Positions 8,666 through 28,294 of a stretch of 36,858 bases of DNA are shown piece after piece. This DNA comes from Ottowia thiooxydans DSM 14619. GTDB lineage: Bacteria; Pseudomonadota; Gammaproteobacteria; Burkholderiales; Burkholderiaceae_C. Positions within the stretch are counted from its first letter, which is position 1, and the number at the start of each line of letters is the position of its first letter. A program made the translations under genes and the position numbers. The notes under the pieces were generated by a model. That model was not told the DNA's origin. It searched no databases and was given only the letters and a program-made list of their open reading frames with translations. The DNA lies in the NCBI RefSeq assembly GCF_000422885.1, contig NZ_AUGX01000045.1:1-36858 (forward strand). The letters run 5' to 3'.

Positions 8666-9339
8666 TCAGGACTTTGTTAAGGGGTGCGGTCGACGATTGC
8701 GCGCCGCATAAATTCCAAACCCTGCAACTAAGGATCCGGTCAGGAGTAGTCCCCACTCACCCAATGAGGGGACCGCAGTCACTGTGGCTGCGACAGGCGC
8801 GGCTCGGACACGCCAGCGATTACCTGAAAATATATGGGTGCCAAACTCGGAACTACCATCGTCCCCAACGAGGCCAATGCAATTACCAGAAACTGCCGAG
8901 ACAACGCTGCATACACCGTTGCGCCGAATATTCACATCGCCAGTGGAGTAGGTGTACAAGCTGTCTAATCGTTGGCCGACGGAATGTGGACCCGGCGGAC
9001 GCATCACCCCACGCCTTCAACTGTGAGCACCGAACTTGCGTCCGTAGTGCCTTCTGCACGGTACAAGGAGGAGTTGGAAGAGGTAAAGGTGGTGATGCCG
9101 TCATTGAGACTCCAGTCTGTCGCGCGAGTCATCAAGTCGACGACGGCGTTGGGGGGCAAGCCGCTGGCGTTGACCACGACCCAACCCGACGTGACCATGC
9201 TTGCTGTATGCGGCGCGATGGCTTCACTGCCATAGGGATGCCCGGCGAAGTCGTACGTCACTTGTCCCCAAGCCGCGCCAGCCCAAAATGCCAAGGCCGC
9301 CACGAGCCCGTGACAGCTGTTTCTGATGACAGTGGTCAT
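8666..9339 (-). pseudogene. Frameshifted IPTL-CTERM exported protein (paralog 1)
   Basis: From ATG at 9339 the reverse strand encodes a signal peptide (MTTVIRNSCHGLVAALAFWAGAAWG) and a domain with TTYDF/DWSLNDGITTFT-like motifs, then meets TGA at about 9004. The homology continues in the next frame (VMRPPGPHSVGQRLDSLYTY...) to a C-terminal VPSLGEWGLLLTGSLVAGFGIYAARNRR, an IPTL-CTERM sorting signal (motif, hydrophobic helix, basic tail). The intact neighbour at 9765-10430 aligns across the break (SVSVMRPLRPHTSGQRIDS). The break lies at a run of four C at 9007-9010. Adding one base would restore a 224-residue protein, close to the neighbour's 221. The cause may be a true mutation or a homopolymer sequencing error. 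Confidence 0.8.
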
Positions 9340-9764
9340 GAATTCCCTCTTCAGAATAATTGCCGCGGCGCGGCACTGCATGAATTCTCCGGGGGAGACA
9401 GGGAACTTGACCACTCCCGATAGTGAGGTATGTAGGGAAAATCTTGCGGCAACGTCGAGTGCGGGTTGCCAGAGCCTCACCCTTTGGGCTGCAGCCGGCC
9501 GCGCCGAAGTCTGCCGGGCCATATTGCTTCGTGGCGCCTCTTGCCAAGGATCGCACCCTGGCGGCGAGATGCGCCTTGCACTACGGCCCAGAAGTCTCCG
9601 GCGCGGGGGGCATTTAGTGTGGATGCTCCCTAGTCACGCCGGAGGCGCGCAACACCAATTTTGCCACTTCAATTTTCGTGGCCCCATTGGCAACTCCATC
9701 CTCGACAACTTGCTTCCGTGGGGAAATGGCCTGGTTAGATCGCAGATCAGCGCGGTGTCCGGCT
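9340..9764. other. Gap between the two IPTL-CTERM paralogs
   Basis: The right-hand side (9340-9430) is the upstream region of paralog 1 and contains the CACT-N6-AGTG site at 9412-9425. The remaining 330 bp have open frames on both strands, but none has a convincing start, ribosome site or recognisable product. I see nothing coding in it that I can support. Confidence 0.4.
9412..9425. promoter_or_regulatory. CACT-N6-AGTG inverted repeat upstream of paralog 1
   Basis: CACT-CCCGAT-AGTG lies 73 bp upstream of the start at 9339. The same motif lies 72 bp upstream of the neighbouring paralog, in the same local context (TTGACCACTCCC). It is a candidate operator. Confidence 0.45.
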
Positions 9765-10430
9765 TTACCGTCTCCGGCTCGATGTTCGATAAGCGCCTAC
9801 CCCTGCTACCAGCAAGCCAGTAAGCAGCAGTCCCCACTCGCCCAAAGTGGGTACCGCAGTAGGCGTGGGAGTGGGAGTGACGACAGGGGTAGAACGAATT
9901 CGCCATAGGTTGCCGGGGTATGCATACGTTGCAAAAATGGCTGATTCATCGTCGCCACTGAGGCTTCCGCAGAGGGTGGTGCTCGGGTCGACGCCGGAGC
10001 AGAAACCGTTGTAGCGCACATTCACATCGCCACCCTCAAAAATGTGCACGCTGTCTATGCGCTGGCCAGAAGTGTGCGGCCTCAGCGGCCGCATCACCGA
10101 CACACTGAAACCGGCGATCGCTGAACTGGCATTCGTATAGCCATACGCGTGGAATATTTCAGAATTGGCGGGCGTGAAGGTAATGACGCCGTCACTGAGG
10201 CTCCAATCTGTCAGCAGCGTGCGTATATCCATGCCGGTGTTGGCGGGCAACCCGCTGTCGTTCAGACGGACCCAGCCTGAAGTATTCATGGCCGCCGTGT
10301 AAGGCGCGATGGCGCCTGCACCGTAGACTGGCCCGTTGTAATCGTAGGTCGTTTGTCCCCAGGCGGCGCTTGCGCAAAGAGCCAAGGCCGCCGCGACCGC
10401 GCGGCAGGTGGATTTAAATGCTGTTGTCAT
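9765..10430 (-). CDS. IPTL-CTERM exported protein (paralog 2, intact)
   Basis: The product is 221 residues from ATG at 10430. A longer in-frame start at 10472 is rejected because it would put 14 polar residues before a classical signal peptide (MTTAFKSTCRAVAAALALCASAAWG, cleavage probably after AWG or SAAWG). The mature part is rich in Thr, Ser and Gly and has no known enzymatic motif. The C-terminus reads a short Thr-Pro repeat (VVTPTPTPTAVP), then VPTLGEWGLLLTGLLVAGVGAY and an Arg-rich tail. This is the IPTL-CTERM signal, which in known systems is recognised by exosortase XrtH after export. No exosortase gene is in the window. The gene is adjacent to a LuxR-type regulator and preceded by the CACT-N6-AGTG site. 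Function is unknown; a surface or matrix role is inferred. Confidence 0.8.
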   Translation of the reverse strand: MTTAFKSTCRAVAAALALCASAAWGQTTYDYNGPVYGAGAIAPYTAAMNTSGWVRLNDSGLPANTGMDIRTLLTDWSLSDGVITFTPANSEIFHAYGYTNASSAIAGFSVSVMRPLRPHTSGQRIDSVHIFEGGDVNVRYNGFCSGVDPSTTLCGSLSGDDESAIFATYAYPGNLWRIRSTPVVTPTPTPTAVPTLGEWGLLLTGLLVAGVGAYRTSSRRR

Positions 10431-10501
10431 GGAGTGCCTCTTCGGAAAAGGCGCCGCGGTGCGGTGCTGCACGAATTCTTGCGGAAGACCCGGAATTTGA
10501 C

Positions 10502-10515
10502 CACTCCCTAAAGTG
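10502..10515. promoter_or_regulatory. CACT-N6-AGTG inverted repeat upstream of paralog 2
   Basis: CACT-CCCTAA-AGTG, 72 bp upstream of the ATG at 10430. The 11-mer CCCTAAAGTGA at 10506-10516 recurs exactly at 11268-11278, upstream of the regulator gene. Confidence 0.5.
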
Positions 10516-10538
10516 AGGGGTGACGGGTAGTGGCGCTA

Positions 10539-11150
10539 TTAGCCTCGGCGGTGAAGCAGCAACGCCAACTGAGTTCGGTTGGTCACTCCGAGGGAGCGGA
10601 AAATATCCTTGAGGTATTGTTTGACGGTACCTTCTGATAGGCCAAGTGCATCCGCAATCTGCTGGTTACTGAATCCTTGGGCGACGGCCTGGGCCACTTG
10701 CGCCAGGCGTGGCGAAAGGGCGCTTAGCGCATCGGCGTCGCCCCATGGCCCCGGCAATGGCGGGGGCGCGGCAGGCGCGCGAGCCAGGGCCAGGTCGACG
10801 GCGGCTCTCAGTTGCGACATGGGACTGGACTTGTGAATGATGGCACGCACGCTAGGCCAGCACTGCCACTCTCCTGCATGCGGAAGCGTGGCGGCACCGC
10901 TGAGGATGATGAGGGGCAGCGCGGGGTAAGCGCTACACAGTGCAGCCAGGCCCTGGCCGCCGTCCATCCCCGGCATATGCACATCCACCACTGCCAGGTC
11001 ACAGCCGGGTGGCGCGGCGGCAGCCAGCAGGGTGGCCAGGCTCCAGGCGTGAACGATCTCGAAGTCACCGAGCATTCGCAAGTGTGCAGCCAGGCCGTCT
11101 CGCACGATCTCGTGGTCGTCGGCCAGAAGAATGCGAGCGGGTGTGTTCAT
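10539..11150 (-). CDS. LuxR/NarL-type two-component response regulator
   Basis: The product is 203 residues. The receiver domain (1-120) has acidic pair D11/D12 in LLADDHE, phosphoacceptor D56 in VVDVHMPGMDG, and K107 in HKSS. After a Pro/Ala-rich linker (124-140) comes a LuxR-type helix-turn-helix (145-203: LSPRLAQVAQAVAQGFSNQQIADALGLSEGTVKQYLKDIFRSLGVTNRTQL). Phosphorylation would promote dimer binding to inverted repeats. The gene lies directly downstream of the hybrid kinase gene (120-bp gap) on the same strand, so the kinase is its likely partner. The target may be the CACT-N6-AGTG repeats upstream of the neighbouring exported-protein genes and of its own gene. That link is inferred from position and motif only. 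Confidence 0.9.
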   Translation of the reverse strand: MNTPARILLADDHEIVRDGLAAHLRMLGDFEIVHAWSLATLLAAAAPPGCDLAVVDVHMPGMDGGQGLAALCSAYPALPLIILSGAATLPHAGEWQCWPSVRAIIHKSSPMSQLRAAVDLALARAPAAPPPLPGPWGDADALSALSPRLAQVAQAVAQGFSNQQIADALGLSEGTVKQYLKDIFRSLGVTNRTQLALLLHRRG

Positions 11151-11263
11151 GCGAGTAGTTCTAGCTCATCAGTCAGAGTGATCGTAACCGCTGTGTTCTG
11201 GATGATTGTCCTTGCAGCTAGCGATCAAGCAGGATCATGATTTCACGGCCCCACCAGCTGCGG

Positions 11264-11277
11264 TATTCCCTAAAGTG
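11264..11277. promoter_or_regulatory. Half-conserved CACT-N6-AGTG site upstream of the regulator
   Basis: TATT-CCCTAA-AGTG keeps the centre and right half of the motif (identical 11-mer CCCTAAAGTGA at 11268-11278). It overlaps the kinase stop codon and lies about 114 bp upstream of the regulator start, where autoregulation would be expected. It may be chance, because part of it is coding sequence. Confidence 0.3.
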
Positions 11278-13159
11278 AAGGTGTCTTTTCTTCTGCCGGT
11301 AATGGCCCCAGTACCAGCCAATCGCGCAGCGCGTGAGGCCGCACAGGCTTGGGCAAAAAGGTGACGCTGCTTTGTGCCAGCGCAACTGCTTCTTCCGCGC
11401 TGGCACCACCGCTCACTACCGCCACACGCAGTCCCGGGGCATGAGGGCGCACGGCATCCAGCACGTCGTGCGAGAGCGCACCTCCGGCCAGCCAATGGTC
11501 GGTAATGAGAACCTGTAAAGGCTCGCCTGCATCTGCGGTCGAGCGGGCTACTTGGGTTGCGCTGGCTGGATCGGGCGCGGTGTGAACCTGAGCGCCCCAG
11601 CCTTGCAACAGCGCTTGCAAAGCGTGGCACGCTGCGGGGTCGTCGTCAACCACCAGGACACGCAAGCCGTGAAGCTTGGGCGGCTGTACAGGGAGGCGGG
11701 CCTGGGTGGGCGACTGGAAAGTAGGTGCCGCGGGTACGGCGGCTGTCGCTCCTGACGGAGCAGCCACCAGGGTGATGGAAAACACGGAGCCAGTTCCCAA
11801 CGCGCTGGCTGGATGAAGGCGCACGTCGGTCCCCATGAGGCGGGCCATGCGCCGTGCTACTGCCAGGCCCAGTCCATGGCCTTCGCCGCCGGAGCGGCTG
11901 CGGTGTGCATCGTGAGCCTGGTAGAACTCATCGAAGATGGCGTCGCGATGGAGCTCGGGAATGCCCGGGCCACTGTCTCGCACTTCAAAGCGCCATGCAG
12001 GTTGACCGTGGACTCGAGCCCGGCGGATGGCCAGCATGACTCCACCGGTTGGTGTGTAGCGGACCGCGTTGGCCACCAGGTTGCCCACCACTCTCCAAAG
12101 CAGTGCGGCGTCTGCCAACACGCTGAGTTCTCCGCCTTTGGCAGGAGGGCGCAGCCAGAAAGCAAGGCCTCGCGCTGCAGCGCTGGGGCGGAAGCTGGCC
12201 TCAGCGCGTGCCAGCAAGGCGTGAGCAGAGGCAGGGGCTATGTGCGCGTGCACGGCTCCGGCATCCATGCGGGCCAGATCCAGTACTTCATCCACCAATT
12301 CGGAGAAGTTGTCTACGCCAGCGACCATCTGCTGCATCAACGGCGCTTGTGGGGTATCCCTTAGTTGTTCGCGGAGCGCTTCGCCCAGCAGCGACATCGC
12401 GTGCACGGGCTGGCGCAGGTCGTGGCTGGCAGCCGCCAGAAATCGCGATTTGGCTGCACTGGCCTCTTCGGCCTGGCGGCGCTTTTCGTCGACCTCGTCC
12501 ATCAGCTCCTCATTGCGCAGACGGGTGCGTAGCTCACGCTGAATGCTTGCAGCGAATCTTTGGGTTGATGCCAACAGCATTCCCCATAGCACCAGCAGGA
12601 ATACTCCGCCAGCCAGGCGTCCGTCGTCATGTGCGTCTTCTACGGTCCATAACTGCCAGGCCAGCCCCCAGAGCAGGGGGCTGATGTAGGCCCACACGGC
12701 GGCGGGCCACACGCACAGTTGCGTCATGGCATTGGTAGCAACCATGAGCGCAATGGAAAACATGTAGATCGCAGCCATGAACTCAGGTGACTGCATGGAT
12801 GGATAATTCCAGCCATTGAAGAGCAAACCCACCAGAAGGCAGCGCCAGACAATTCCGTGAGCCCAGCGGCGCGGATCGATGGCGCCGAGAGCCTTGGCGC
12901 GCTCAAGGCGATGCAAAAAATAGCTACGCTCAGCCGTGGCCAGCAGCATCAACGCGGCAGTTCCCCAGGCCCATGCCGCGCCTATGAATCCTTGGAGCAG
13001 CCACGCCGCCAGCGGAACGCCCAGCGCCGAACTGATACCCATGGCGCGGGCACCCTTGGTCAGCAGCGTGAGCGCCTCATGCTCCAATTGCAATTGCCGC
13101 GCGGGTGTGTCGCCAATGGCTGTGGGACCACCTCGTAAAAAGGTCAGTCGATCGGTCAT
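11270..13159 (-). CDS. Hybrid sensor histidine kinase with C-terminal receiver
   Basis: The product is 629 residues from ATG at 13159, chosen because GGAG lies 8 nt upstream. An in-frame ATG at 13270 would add 37 residues with no family character. About six membrane segments fill residues 40-200, without a recognised extracellular sensor, so the membrane part itself may sense. A short coiled coil leads to HisKA with H246 in AAASHDLRQPVHAMSLL. HATPase motifs follow: N box LWRVVGNLVANAVRYT, G1 DSGPGIP, G2 GHGLGLAVARRM. The receiver (about 498-620) has VVDDDP, phosphoacceptor D554 in LITDHWLAGG and K604 in LPKPV. The adjacent LuxR-type regulator is the likely output. The signal is unknown. Confidence 0.9.
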   Translation of the reverse strand: MTDRLTFLRGGPTAIGDTPARQLQLEHEALTLLTKGARAMGISSALGVPLAAWLLQGFIGAAWAWGTAALMLLATAERSYFLHRLERAKALGAIDPRRWAHGIVWRCLLVGLLFNGWNYPSMQSPEFMAAIYMFSIALMVATNAMTQLCVWPAAVWAYISPLLWGLAWQLWTVEDAHDDGRLAGGVFLLVLWGMLLASTQRFAASIQRELRTRLRNEELMDEVDEKRRQAEEASAAKSRFLAAASHDLRQPVHAMSLLGEALREQLRDTPQAPLMQQMVAGVDNFSELVDEVLDLARMDAGAVHAHIAPASAHALLARAEASFRPSAAARGLAFWLRPPAKGGELSVLADAALLWRVVGNLVANAVRYTPTGGVMLAIRRARVHGQPAWRFEVRDSGPGIPELHRDAIFDEFYQAHDAHRSRSGGEGHGLGLAVARRMARLMGTDVRLHPASALGTGSVFSITLVAAPSGATAAVPAAPTFQSPTQARLPVQPPKLHGLRVLVVDDDPAACHALQALLQGWGAQVHTAPDPASATQVARSTADAGEPLQVLITDHWLAGGALSHDVLDAVRPHAPGLRVAVVSGGASAEEAVALAQSSVTFLPKPVRPHALRDWLVLGPLPAEEKTPSL

Positions 13160-13385
13160 TCGTGCTCCGGCCTGCCTGTAAGCTTGATGGGACAGTATAA
13201 GTTTGGGTGCGTGATCAAATCTGTCTGGGCGACAAACAACCTGGGATTCGCGGCGCTGTTTACCCTTCAAACGGGCGCCTCCTGCGATTCAGCAGGAACC
13301 TATTGGGCTTTACTCAGTCAATCAAATGACGCTGCCCTCGCAGGGCATTTTTCTTTCAATCCCTCGCCCGTTCGCGGCGACCGTT

Positions 13386-26890: not shown

Positions 26891-26904
26891 CACTCTCTAA
26901 AATG
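26891..26904. promoter_or_regulatory. Variant of the CACT-N6-AGTG motif
   Basis: CACT-CTCTAA-AATG differs at two positions from the site at 10502-10515. It lies 50 bp upstream of the start codon at 26954, more than 16 kb from the other copies. Confidence 0.3.
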
Positions 26905-26953: not shown

Positions 26954-28294
26954 ATGAGACGCAATGGAATGGTTTCCCCGGAAGTGCTACGTCTTACACC
27001 GTCGCGTCTTGTGCATTGGTTGAGCCTCTGCGTGGTGGGCGGCTGCAGTTTGCTCGCCGCCAGCGCGGCGAACGCAGTGCCTCAGGTGCCTCAGGCTCCT
27101 ACGCTCATATTTTTTGAAGATTTTCAGAATATCGTGCCTCCCGCCAACGGTATGCTCCTGACCGGATATACAGGTGGGGGAGGAGAGACTTACAGTGCCG
27201 ACGCTGCGTGGCTGGCAGGTTGCAACGGCTTGATGTCCTCAGGCAATGAGGCTGCTGCTGGCTCATTTGGTCAGACCGCAGCTTGCAGCGGTCAGACAGA
27301 GTGGAATCAGACCCAGCAAATTGCATGGGCTCTGGGTCAGTTCAAGAACCCGACGACTGCGTGGGGCAATTACGCCGTGTCGGCCTACACATCCAATAGT
27401 CCTGCCGCCAACCTGATCGAGTTCCAGTCGAATAATCCTATTGCGCTACCCCATCCTGGTCGTTTCATCGCAGCCAGAATTGATGTGGGCGCACTGAACT
27501 GCGCGAGAGCCTCGGCTCCGTACCTTCAATTCCAGTTGCTGGATGGCGCTACGGTGCTCAATGCCGGTGCTGTGATCAACGGATGTACTGGTGCCAACGG
27601 ACCTAATAGCTATACGCTGATCGATACGCCTGCAATAGGTACAGCACCTGCTGGTGTTGGCGACATAGGCGAGACAGCTGGTGCCCGAGTTGATACATAT
27701 ACCAGCGGCGGCGTGATCATTACAGGCTCGTCCGCTGGTATTCGCATGCGCAATATAAATGGCGGCGGCGGTGGTAACGACCATGCCTTTGATAACGTTG
27801 AATTGTTGGACGTCAGTCCTGCGCTGGACAAGTCTTTCTCGCCGACTTCGGTGATGGTGAACGCTACGTCCACACTGACCTTTACAGTCACGAATACCAG
27901 CGAACTGGGGTCAAAACCTGGCTGGTCATTCACAGACACGCTTCCAGCAGGCTTGGTGGTGGCTACGCCTCCTGCGACATCGACTACTTGCGACAGTGGC
28001 TCTGTGACGGCTGTGGCCGGAGGCTCGACTGTTGCTGTGACCGGTAATTTGAACACTGGCTCCACCTACTGCACGATGACGGTAAATGTCACTTCAGCTA
28101 GCGCGGGATCCTATGTCAACGGCCCTGACAACATCGTTTCCCAAGGTCTGACGCCTCCTCAGCCCTCCACCGTGAGGTTTGGCGCACCTGCTCCAGTCGT
28201 GACTGCTGTTCCAGTCGGAACTCCTCTCATGCTGCTGCTGCTTTCCACCTTCCTGGCTGGTTTCGCGGGCCTGAGGTTGCGCGGCCGCAAGTGA
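26954..28294 (+). CDS. Exported DUF11-like protein with C-terminal membrane anchor
   Basis: The product is 446 residues from ATG at 26954, chosen because AGGAG lies 7 nt upstream; ATG at 26933 has none. The signal peptide is MRRNGMVSPEVLRLTPSRLVHWLSLCVVGGCSLLAASAANA. The N-terminal half (about 45-290) is a Gly/Ala/Asn-rich domain with four Cys and LIFFEDFQN and NDHAFDNVELLDV motifs, typical of jelly-roll extracellular domains. The second part is DUF11-like: LDKSFSPTSVMVNATSTLTFTVTNTSELGSKPGWSFTDTLPAGLVV. It ends PAPVVTAVPVGTPLMLLLLSTFLAGFAGLRLRGRK, a hydrophobic helix with a basic tail like exosortase substrates but without a clear IPTL motif. A terminator follows at 28380-28414. Function unknown. 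Confidence 0.8.
   Translation: MRRNGMVSPEVLRLTPSRLVHWLSLCVVGGCSLLAASAANAVPQVPQAPTLIFFEDFQNIVPPANGMLLTGYTGGGGETYSADAAWLAGCNGLMSSGNEAAAGSFGQTAACSGQTEWNQTQQIAWALGQFKNPTTAWGNYAVSAYTSNSPAANLIEFQSNNPIALPHPGRFIAARIDVGALNCARASAPYLQFQLLDGATVLNAGAVINGCTGANGPNSYTLIDTPAIGTAPAGVGDIGETAGARVDTYTSGGVIITGSSAGIRMRNINGGGGGNDHAFDNVELLDVSPALDKSFSPTSVMVNATSTLTFTVTNTSELGSKPGWSFTDTLPAGLVVATPPATSTTCDSGSVTAVAGGSTVAVTGNLNTGSTYCTMTVNVTSASAGSYVNGPDNIVSQGLTPPQPSTVRFGAPAPVVTAVPVGTPLMLLLLSTFLAGFAGLRLRGRK

Follow-up and report, generated by a model that had tools for sequence, protein, structure and literature searches.

A conserved dyad beside a LuxR/NarL-type response regulator as the likely operator of a small two-component regulon of exported proteins

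At every locus where we found a close ortholog of one LuxR/NarL-type response regulator (RR), an imperfect 14-bp dyad, approximately YTCACTTTRGGGAR, lies at a fixed spacing from a -10-like element. From sequence and its comparison among relatives, we consider the adjacent two-component system likely to use this motif as its operator, at which the RR would act as a class II activator of the neighboring exported-protein gene or genes and of its own gene. It appears to be a compact, specialized switch of a well-known sort rather than a control on surface proteins throughout the genome. The advance is modest: the operator and its regulon are new, and their kind is already known.

Locus and candidate operator sites

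The window, the whole stretch of 36,858 nucleotides analyzed here, is contig C37 of the 7.05-Mb genome of Ottowia thiooxydans DSM 14619 (G000). Its relevant features are as follows.

11270..13270, minus strand: hybrid histidine kinase with HisKA, HATPase_c and a C-terminal receiver
11260..11279, minus strand: putative operator in the kinase-RR gap, dyad TTCACTTTAGGGAA at 11279-11266, then TACCGC
11237..11242, minus strand: -10-like AATCAT, 17 bp after TACCGC
10539..11150, minus strand: LuxR/NarL-type RR (Response_reg plus GerE), the presumed binder
10498..10517, minus strand: putative operator and -35 of the first IPTL-CTERM gene, dyad CTCACTTTAGGGAG at 10517-10504, -35-like TGGTCA at 10503-10498
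10475..10480, minus strand: -10-like AAGAAT, 17 bp after TGGTCA
9765..10430, minus strand: candidate target gene 1, exported 221-aa protein with an IPTL-CTERM tail
9408..9427, minus strand: duplicated putative operator and -35 of the frame-split IPTL-CTERM copy, CTCACTATCGGGAG then TGGTCA
9384..9389, minus strand: -10-like GAGAAT, 18 bp after TGGTCA
8666..9340, minus strand: second IPTL-CTERM copy in two frames (9340 to ~9004; 9007 to 8666)
26891..26904, plus strand: CACTCTCTAAAATG before an exported DUF7933 gene, judged a chance match outside the system

The kinase is NahK/ErcS-like, with a score under the cut-off of that NCBIfam model, and its start probably lies near 13162. The RR passes the cut-offs of both Pfam PF00072 and PF00196, corresponding to a receiver and a C-terminal GerE helix-turn-helix. 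PF18203 is over its cut-off in the IPTL genes linked to the RR in G000 and in two relatives of the same genus (G010 and G020), as well as in a distal gene on contig C2 of G000; TIGR04174 (IPTL-CTERM) is over its cut-off in G000. The initial annotation had described two tandem IPTL-CTERM genes. The second of them, which matches the first at 52 to 55% identity in two pieces, is frame-split and looks like its duplicate; relative G010 has a single IPTL copy at the locus. The frame of the second gene changes near 9004-9025, through real decay or sequence error, while its promoter is kept. A GC-rich GCACCGCACCGCGGCG-like stretch was also seen in the leader, past the -10-like element and ahead of the start codon, at 9361-9375 on the minus strand of the window, with a matching stretch before 10430. 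This leader stretch is present in both window copies and in G010, is absent from the C2 gene, and is possibly a second control element.

As the initial annotation had reported, CACT-N6-AGTG occurs at 9412-9425 (CACTCCCGATAGTG) and 10502-10515 (CACTCCCTAAAGTG). These are the only exact occurrences in the window (2 observed versus a mean of 0.33 in 100 shuffles, 3 of which reach 2), and each is 71 bases from its minus-strand ATG (9340 and 10430, respectively). The reported recurrence of CCCTAAAGTGA at 11268-11278 is likewise exact; this third copy, which takes in the kinase stop codon (11270-11272), is 117 bases upstream of the RR start. Exact TCACTTTAGGGA is found twice in the 7.05-Mb genome, both times at this locus and 762 bp apart. 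The palindrome CACTN6AGTG alone is not special, since its 81 sites genome-wide are fewer than the 177 of a reversed control and show no enrichment.

Conservation of the site at orthologous loci

Close RR orthologs (≥61% identity) were found at six loci in all, with identities of 61 to 83%. Three are in the genus of G000, where 3 of 29 genomes carry a close RR (G000; G010, the Comamonadaceae MAG AER2_3, 83%; G020, 61%), and three are in the genus of G357 (3 of 9 genomes: G357; G422, 68%; G424, 70%). Sampling more widely, with at most seven first-look candidates scored per genome, we found a close RR among the candidates scored in 2 of 399 family genomes (G000; G357, 71%), nine others reaching no more than 43%. 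In an order-wide sample of 399, G000 alone passed E ≤ 1e-40 among the candidates scored.

The site is kept at all six loci. Using matrices trained without the tested genome (second-genus loci being scored with the first-genus-trained matrix only), the top-scoring position was such a site in 6/6 fetched RR loci. No equal score occurred per random megabase for the best site in five loci, and 10 per megabase occurred for that of G424. When the matrix was combined with a -10 rule (nAnnAT after 17 or 18 bp), the sites led every locus, with no equal random composite in 2 Mb, or 1 for G424. At G424, the matrix favors the orientation opposite to the gene (14.4 versus 10.6 bits, the latter being at chance level), and the -10 spacing is counted in the gene orientation, the weaker one for the matrix. 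The sample of orthologs is small (six, in two genera), and some sites are nonindependent, one pair being a duplicate.

Across the six loci, the site was located in the kinase-RR gap in three, before a neighboring exported-protein gene in five, and ahead of a LysE-kinase-RR row in one. In G000, sites stand at two IPTL promoters and in the kinase-RR gap. The 10498..10517 operator has a leave-one-out score of 22.9, with none equal per random megabase, and a counterpart in G010 at L048:6662. That at 9408..9427 scores 16.0 (5 equal per random megabase) and is not independent of it, because the frame-split gene that it precedes is a duplicate of the first. The kinase-RR gap operator has counterparts in G010 (L048:5855) and G020 (L128:5964), so that G010 has sites at one IPTL promoter and in the gap, and G020 has the gap site plus a more diverged second one. 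This second G020 site, ATCCCTTTCGGGAC-TGGTGC-N17-GAGCAT, was revealed by the composite scan and had not been used in making the -10 rule. It is separated by 61 bases from a downstream lipoprotein-like exported gene (L128:3121-4092), behind which an IPTL gene (L128:4278-4958) lies on the same strand. In both G357 and G424, the site precedes an exported FG-GAP repeat gene that has no IPTL tail and adjoins the RR. In G422, it precedes a LysE-type transporter gene, and not one for a surface protein, upstream of kinase and RR and on their strand. The G357 FG-GAP gene (L129:6687-8887) is interrupted: a 126-aa open reading frame (ORF) with a signal is followed by an FG-GAP-repeat ORF in another frame.

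Because the site accompanies the RR in 6/6 loci and lies beside the RR's own start in three of them, control by the adjacent kinase/regulator pair, as the initial annotation had proposed, is the best reading of these sequences. The cargo elsewhere is FG-GAP in two relatives, lipoprotein-like plus IPTL in one, and LysE in one, which argues that the site is tied to the regulator and not to the IPTL signal.

More distant RRs (~38 to 45% identity, 13 loci) gave matrix scores of at most 12.7 bits except at L140, where the 15.3-bit match at -226 was set aside as it seems to be inside the coding sequence of the preceding gene. Separately, 5 of these 13 loci (L130, L135, L137, L138, and L141; RR identity ~38 to 43%) show TGAC[CT]AA[GT][GT]TCA 102 to 111 bp upstream of where the RR match begins, with an equal match in 0, 0, 1, 21, and 35 of 300 shuffles. 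This dyad may serve as operator in a sister subfamily whose geometry is similar.

Dyad and promoter geometry

The motif is better described as the 14-bp dyad than as CACT-N6-AGTG, which is an off-centre reading; the two CACT-N6-AGTG sites and the third copy reported by the initial annotation are real and conserved, with the centre slightly off. Two-fold symmetry across nine sites peaks in YTCACTT|TRGGGAR (centre 6.5), two bases aside from CACT-N6-AGTG, with 4.8 of 8 pairs complementary per site at the new centre versus 3.1 at the old one; these counts use the motif-defining sites. By hand count on the same nine, the outer pair is complementary (C with G, or T with A) in 7/9 sites. The right half of the dyad varies among sites. 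The G424 site reads TTCAC-N4-GTGAA; TCCC-N4-GGGA is the reading of the second G020 site, which had no part in defining the motif.

In ten sites (nine locus sites plus the distal C2 site), the dyad is directly followed by a -35-like hexamer: TGGTCA, TAGTCA, TGGCGC, TGGCGA, TACCGC, or TGTCGG. The pattern nAnnAT then occurs at one fixed offset in eight of the ten and one base further in the other two, against 0.1 expected per offset; it was picked post hoc, and the second G020 site, discovered afterwards, conforms. With that site added, the spacing from the -35 to the -10-like element is 17 bp in 9/11 sites and 18 bp in 2/11. Matrix, dyad centre, and -10 pattern were all fitted to the same sites, again except the second G020 site. 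When four IPTL-type promoters were aligned, the main invariant blocks were the site, the GTCA of the -35, AGAAT, and a ribosome-binding-site-like end; in the kinase-RR gaps, the longest block common to three genomes is CTTTAGGGA. A consensus promoter scan called no promoters at the sites, both hexamers being weak.

In the mechanism that we favor, the NahK/ErcS-like hybrid kinase would, on a presumed signal, phosphorylate the LuxR/NarL-type RR. The phosphorylated RR would bind as a dimer to the dyad, which ends right before a poor -35 (TGGTCA, TGGCGC, or similar) 17 to 18 bp ahead of nAnnAT, and, working as a class II activator, would bring in sigma-70 RNA polymerase. The neighboring exported-protein gene or genes would be switched on in this way, as would the RR gene itself through the kinase-RR gap site. 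Since the dyad abuts the -35 and the -10-like hexamer lies 17 to 18 bp on, the dyad centre would fall near -42.5 if these elements are used as usual, which we take to be a class II activator position.

The same RR could instead bind and repress, or sterically block the -35, so that the signal would turn the exported gene off. A dimer on a dyad that abuts the -35 could indeed exclude polymerase; however, the dyad lies just upstream of the -35 and not over it, and both hexamers are poor, as is usual in activator-dependent promoters. In addition, activation in the related CrbR system requires the box at -52 to -36 (PMC5715377). Repression therefore appears improbable to us, and activation by the RR is the direction that we retain.

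Distribution of the motif over genomes

Allowing up to two mismatches, TCACTTTAGGGARTG has a single match in the 3.3-Mb G357 genome, the locus site. In G010 it has 10, of which the sole two with 0 or 1 mismatch are the locus sites. Totals against a reversed control are 19 versus 15 in G000 and 10 versus 12 in G010. Of 399 family genomes, 2 contain the strict 17-mer YTCACTTTDGGGARTGG, each at its RR locus; the reversed control matched once. In what is apparently the same draw of 399 genomes, these two were the only carriers of a close RR among the candidates scored. Because the pattern was derived from the carriers, only its absence from the other 397 is informative.

A further pattern, YTCACTTTDGRGARTGGYSM, was relaxed to take in the C2 site. 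Its zero-mismatch matches in G000 are the C2 site and 10498-10517, and the other two window sites are found at 2 mismatches. At 3 mismatches it gave 63 matches in the six genomes versus 77 for the reversed control, showing no excess. Seven non-locus matches were inspected (all four with 2 mismatches and three with 3): none was promoter-like, and all overlap an ORF of ≥200 aa.

These counts bear on whether another regulator in the genome binds the sites, with the neighboring RR a bystander. Linkage is not binding, and each of the six genomes holds two to five matches to the ErdR model, the RR included. Against this, the sites with 0 or 1 mismatch adjoin the RR or, in one case, the distal C2 gene, and YTCACTTTDGGGARTGG is absent from 397 of 399 family genomes. 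We regard a bystander RR as quite improbable and continue with the adjacent RR as the presumed binder.

IPTL-CTERM genes and the extent of the regulon

IPTL-CTERM matches number at least 43 in G000 (150 of 240 first-look candidates scored), 34 in G010, 6 in G020, and 4 in G357. At 7.05 Mb, G000 is also far larger than the 28 other genomes of its genus (1.3 to 4.5 Mb). We scanned 84 of the 87 IPTL regions; the other three, one per genome, belong to the RR loci of G000, G010, and G020. Contig ends shorten 6 of the 84 upstream. These regions (268,818 bases, four genomes) contained 20 sites above 12 bits, versus 16.8 expected. A comparable site in promoter position was found before 1 of 42 other IPTL genes examined in G000 and before none of 33 in G010, 4 in G357, and 5 in G020.

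The single positive case, on contig C2 of G000 (L218), has a complete promoter, CTCACTTTGGAGAG-TGGTCA-N17-AAGAAT, with 64 bases from the AGTG of the site to the ATG. The gene encodes a 980-aa DUF7948/choice-of-anchor-U/IPTL protein and, judged by this promoter, is probably also a target. Other candidates were discarded: L279 (20.8 bits) and L238 (16.2) are inside coding ORFs, and L225 has no -10 spacing.

The initial annotation had further listed a weaker copy at 26891. This site scores only 10.9 bits, whereas 269 kb should by expectation yield 53.8 sites over 10 bits, and its scoring orientation is opposite to its gene, so we rejected it as a regulon member at chance level. For the exported DUF7933 gene that it precedes (window 26954-28294, plus strand), a search of the other 28 genus genomes returned no homolog at E ≤ 1e-30. 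Of the two sites that the initial annotation set beyond explanation by duplication, the third copy stands, conserved in G010 and G020, and the fourth drops out.

The proposed regulon of sorted surface proteins fares no better: genome-wide motif matches do not clearly exceed the reversed control, and high matrix scores in the IPTL regions occur at roughly the random rate. A genome-wide IPTL-CTERM regulon, analogous to that of PrsK/PrsR for PEP-CTERM, would account for the complete promoter of the distal C2 gene, but the counts above (1/42, 0/33, 0/4, and 0/5) largely refute it, and we hold it to be very improbable. That the window sites reflect chance and duplication, i.e., two copies of a duplicated unit plus a chance 11-mer, is barely credible: copy 9412 does duplicate 10502 and CACTN6AGTG lacks genome-wide enrichment, but both positions have counterparts in G010, G020 has two sites, and three more genomes have one each.

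A wider reading of the small RR-linked regulon is offered tentatively. The module may be a portable, signal-controlled switch for surface display, with an operator previously undescribed, in which kinase, regulator, and operator-promoter are kept while the cargo varies between an IPTL-CTERM protein, a lipoprotein-like gene with an IPTL gene, an FG-GAP lipoprotein, and a LysE transporter; in this genome it would also have captured a distal repeat-rich IPTL gene.

Comparison with known systems

In the literature searched, we found no described regulon with this operator, and the string CACTTTAGGGA returned only papers unrelated by title. The accessible text of the AIDmut-Seq and P. putida ErdR papers prints no ErdR motif letters.

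The closest comparison is CrbS/CrbR (MxtR/ErdR) of Pseudomonas fluorescens SBW25, whose target promoters carry the ACTU motif, an imperfect inverted repeat that spans -52 to -36, directly ahead of the RpoD promoter, and is required for activation (PMC5715377). Both systems combine a hybrid kinase with a LuxR-family RR, and in both an imperfect inverted repeat stands right before a sigma-70-type promoter, so the geometry agrees. Of the ACTU sites listed there, the two best-scoring align in register with our dyad, e.g., TACGACTAAAGTCTAAA with TCCCTAAAGTGA, having CTAAAGT in common. However, the similarity of the five listed ACTU sites to our matrix is not significant (p 0.29), and we therefore rejected identity of the operator with the ACTU box. 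By our own count, the box here is also ~2 bp nearer the -35. The RR has ErdR as its best NCBIfam match, yet at 81.8 bits versus a cut-off of 390 (79.5 in the genome search), and none of the matches to this model across the six genomes attains that cut-off. The linked genes here encode exported proteins or a transporter, not acetate functions. With geometry in agreement and sequence similarity not significant, we propose a CrbR-type way of working and claim no membership in ErdR/CrbR. The module has an ErdR-like regulator, and its linked genes differ between genera.

PrsK/PrsR is thought to control PEP-CTERM genes, PrsR being described as an NtrC-like sigma-54 activator with a predicted site before 99 of 167 proteobacterial PEP-CTERM genes (PMC1569441, PMC9850573). 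That system resembles ours in joining a two-component system, C-terminally sorted exported proteins, and a common upstream motif. It differs in that the present RR is LuxR-type, the promoter sigma-70-like, and the regulon very small; among the Pfam matches of the RR, a sigma-54 activator domain is absent, and -35/-10-like spacing is found instead. This suggests that genes for sorted proteins need not be under control of the PrsR/sigma-54 type. In the literature searched, the IPTL-CTERM sorting signal is almost absent, a single paper containing the term, and the operator, its likely regulator, and the promoter model give a testable handle on when some IPTL-CTERM proteins are made.

NarL/FixJ (LuxR-type) response regulators are known as class II activators. 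The system described here is like that class in its Response_reg plus GerE architecture and in an inverted repeat adjoining the -35.
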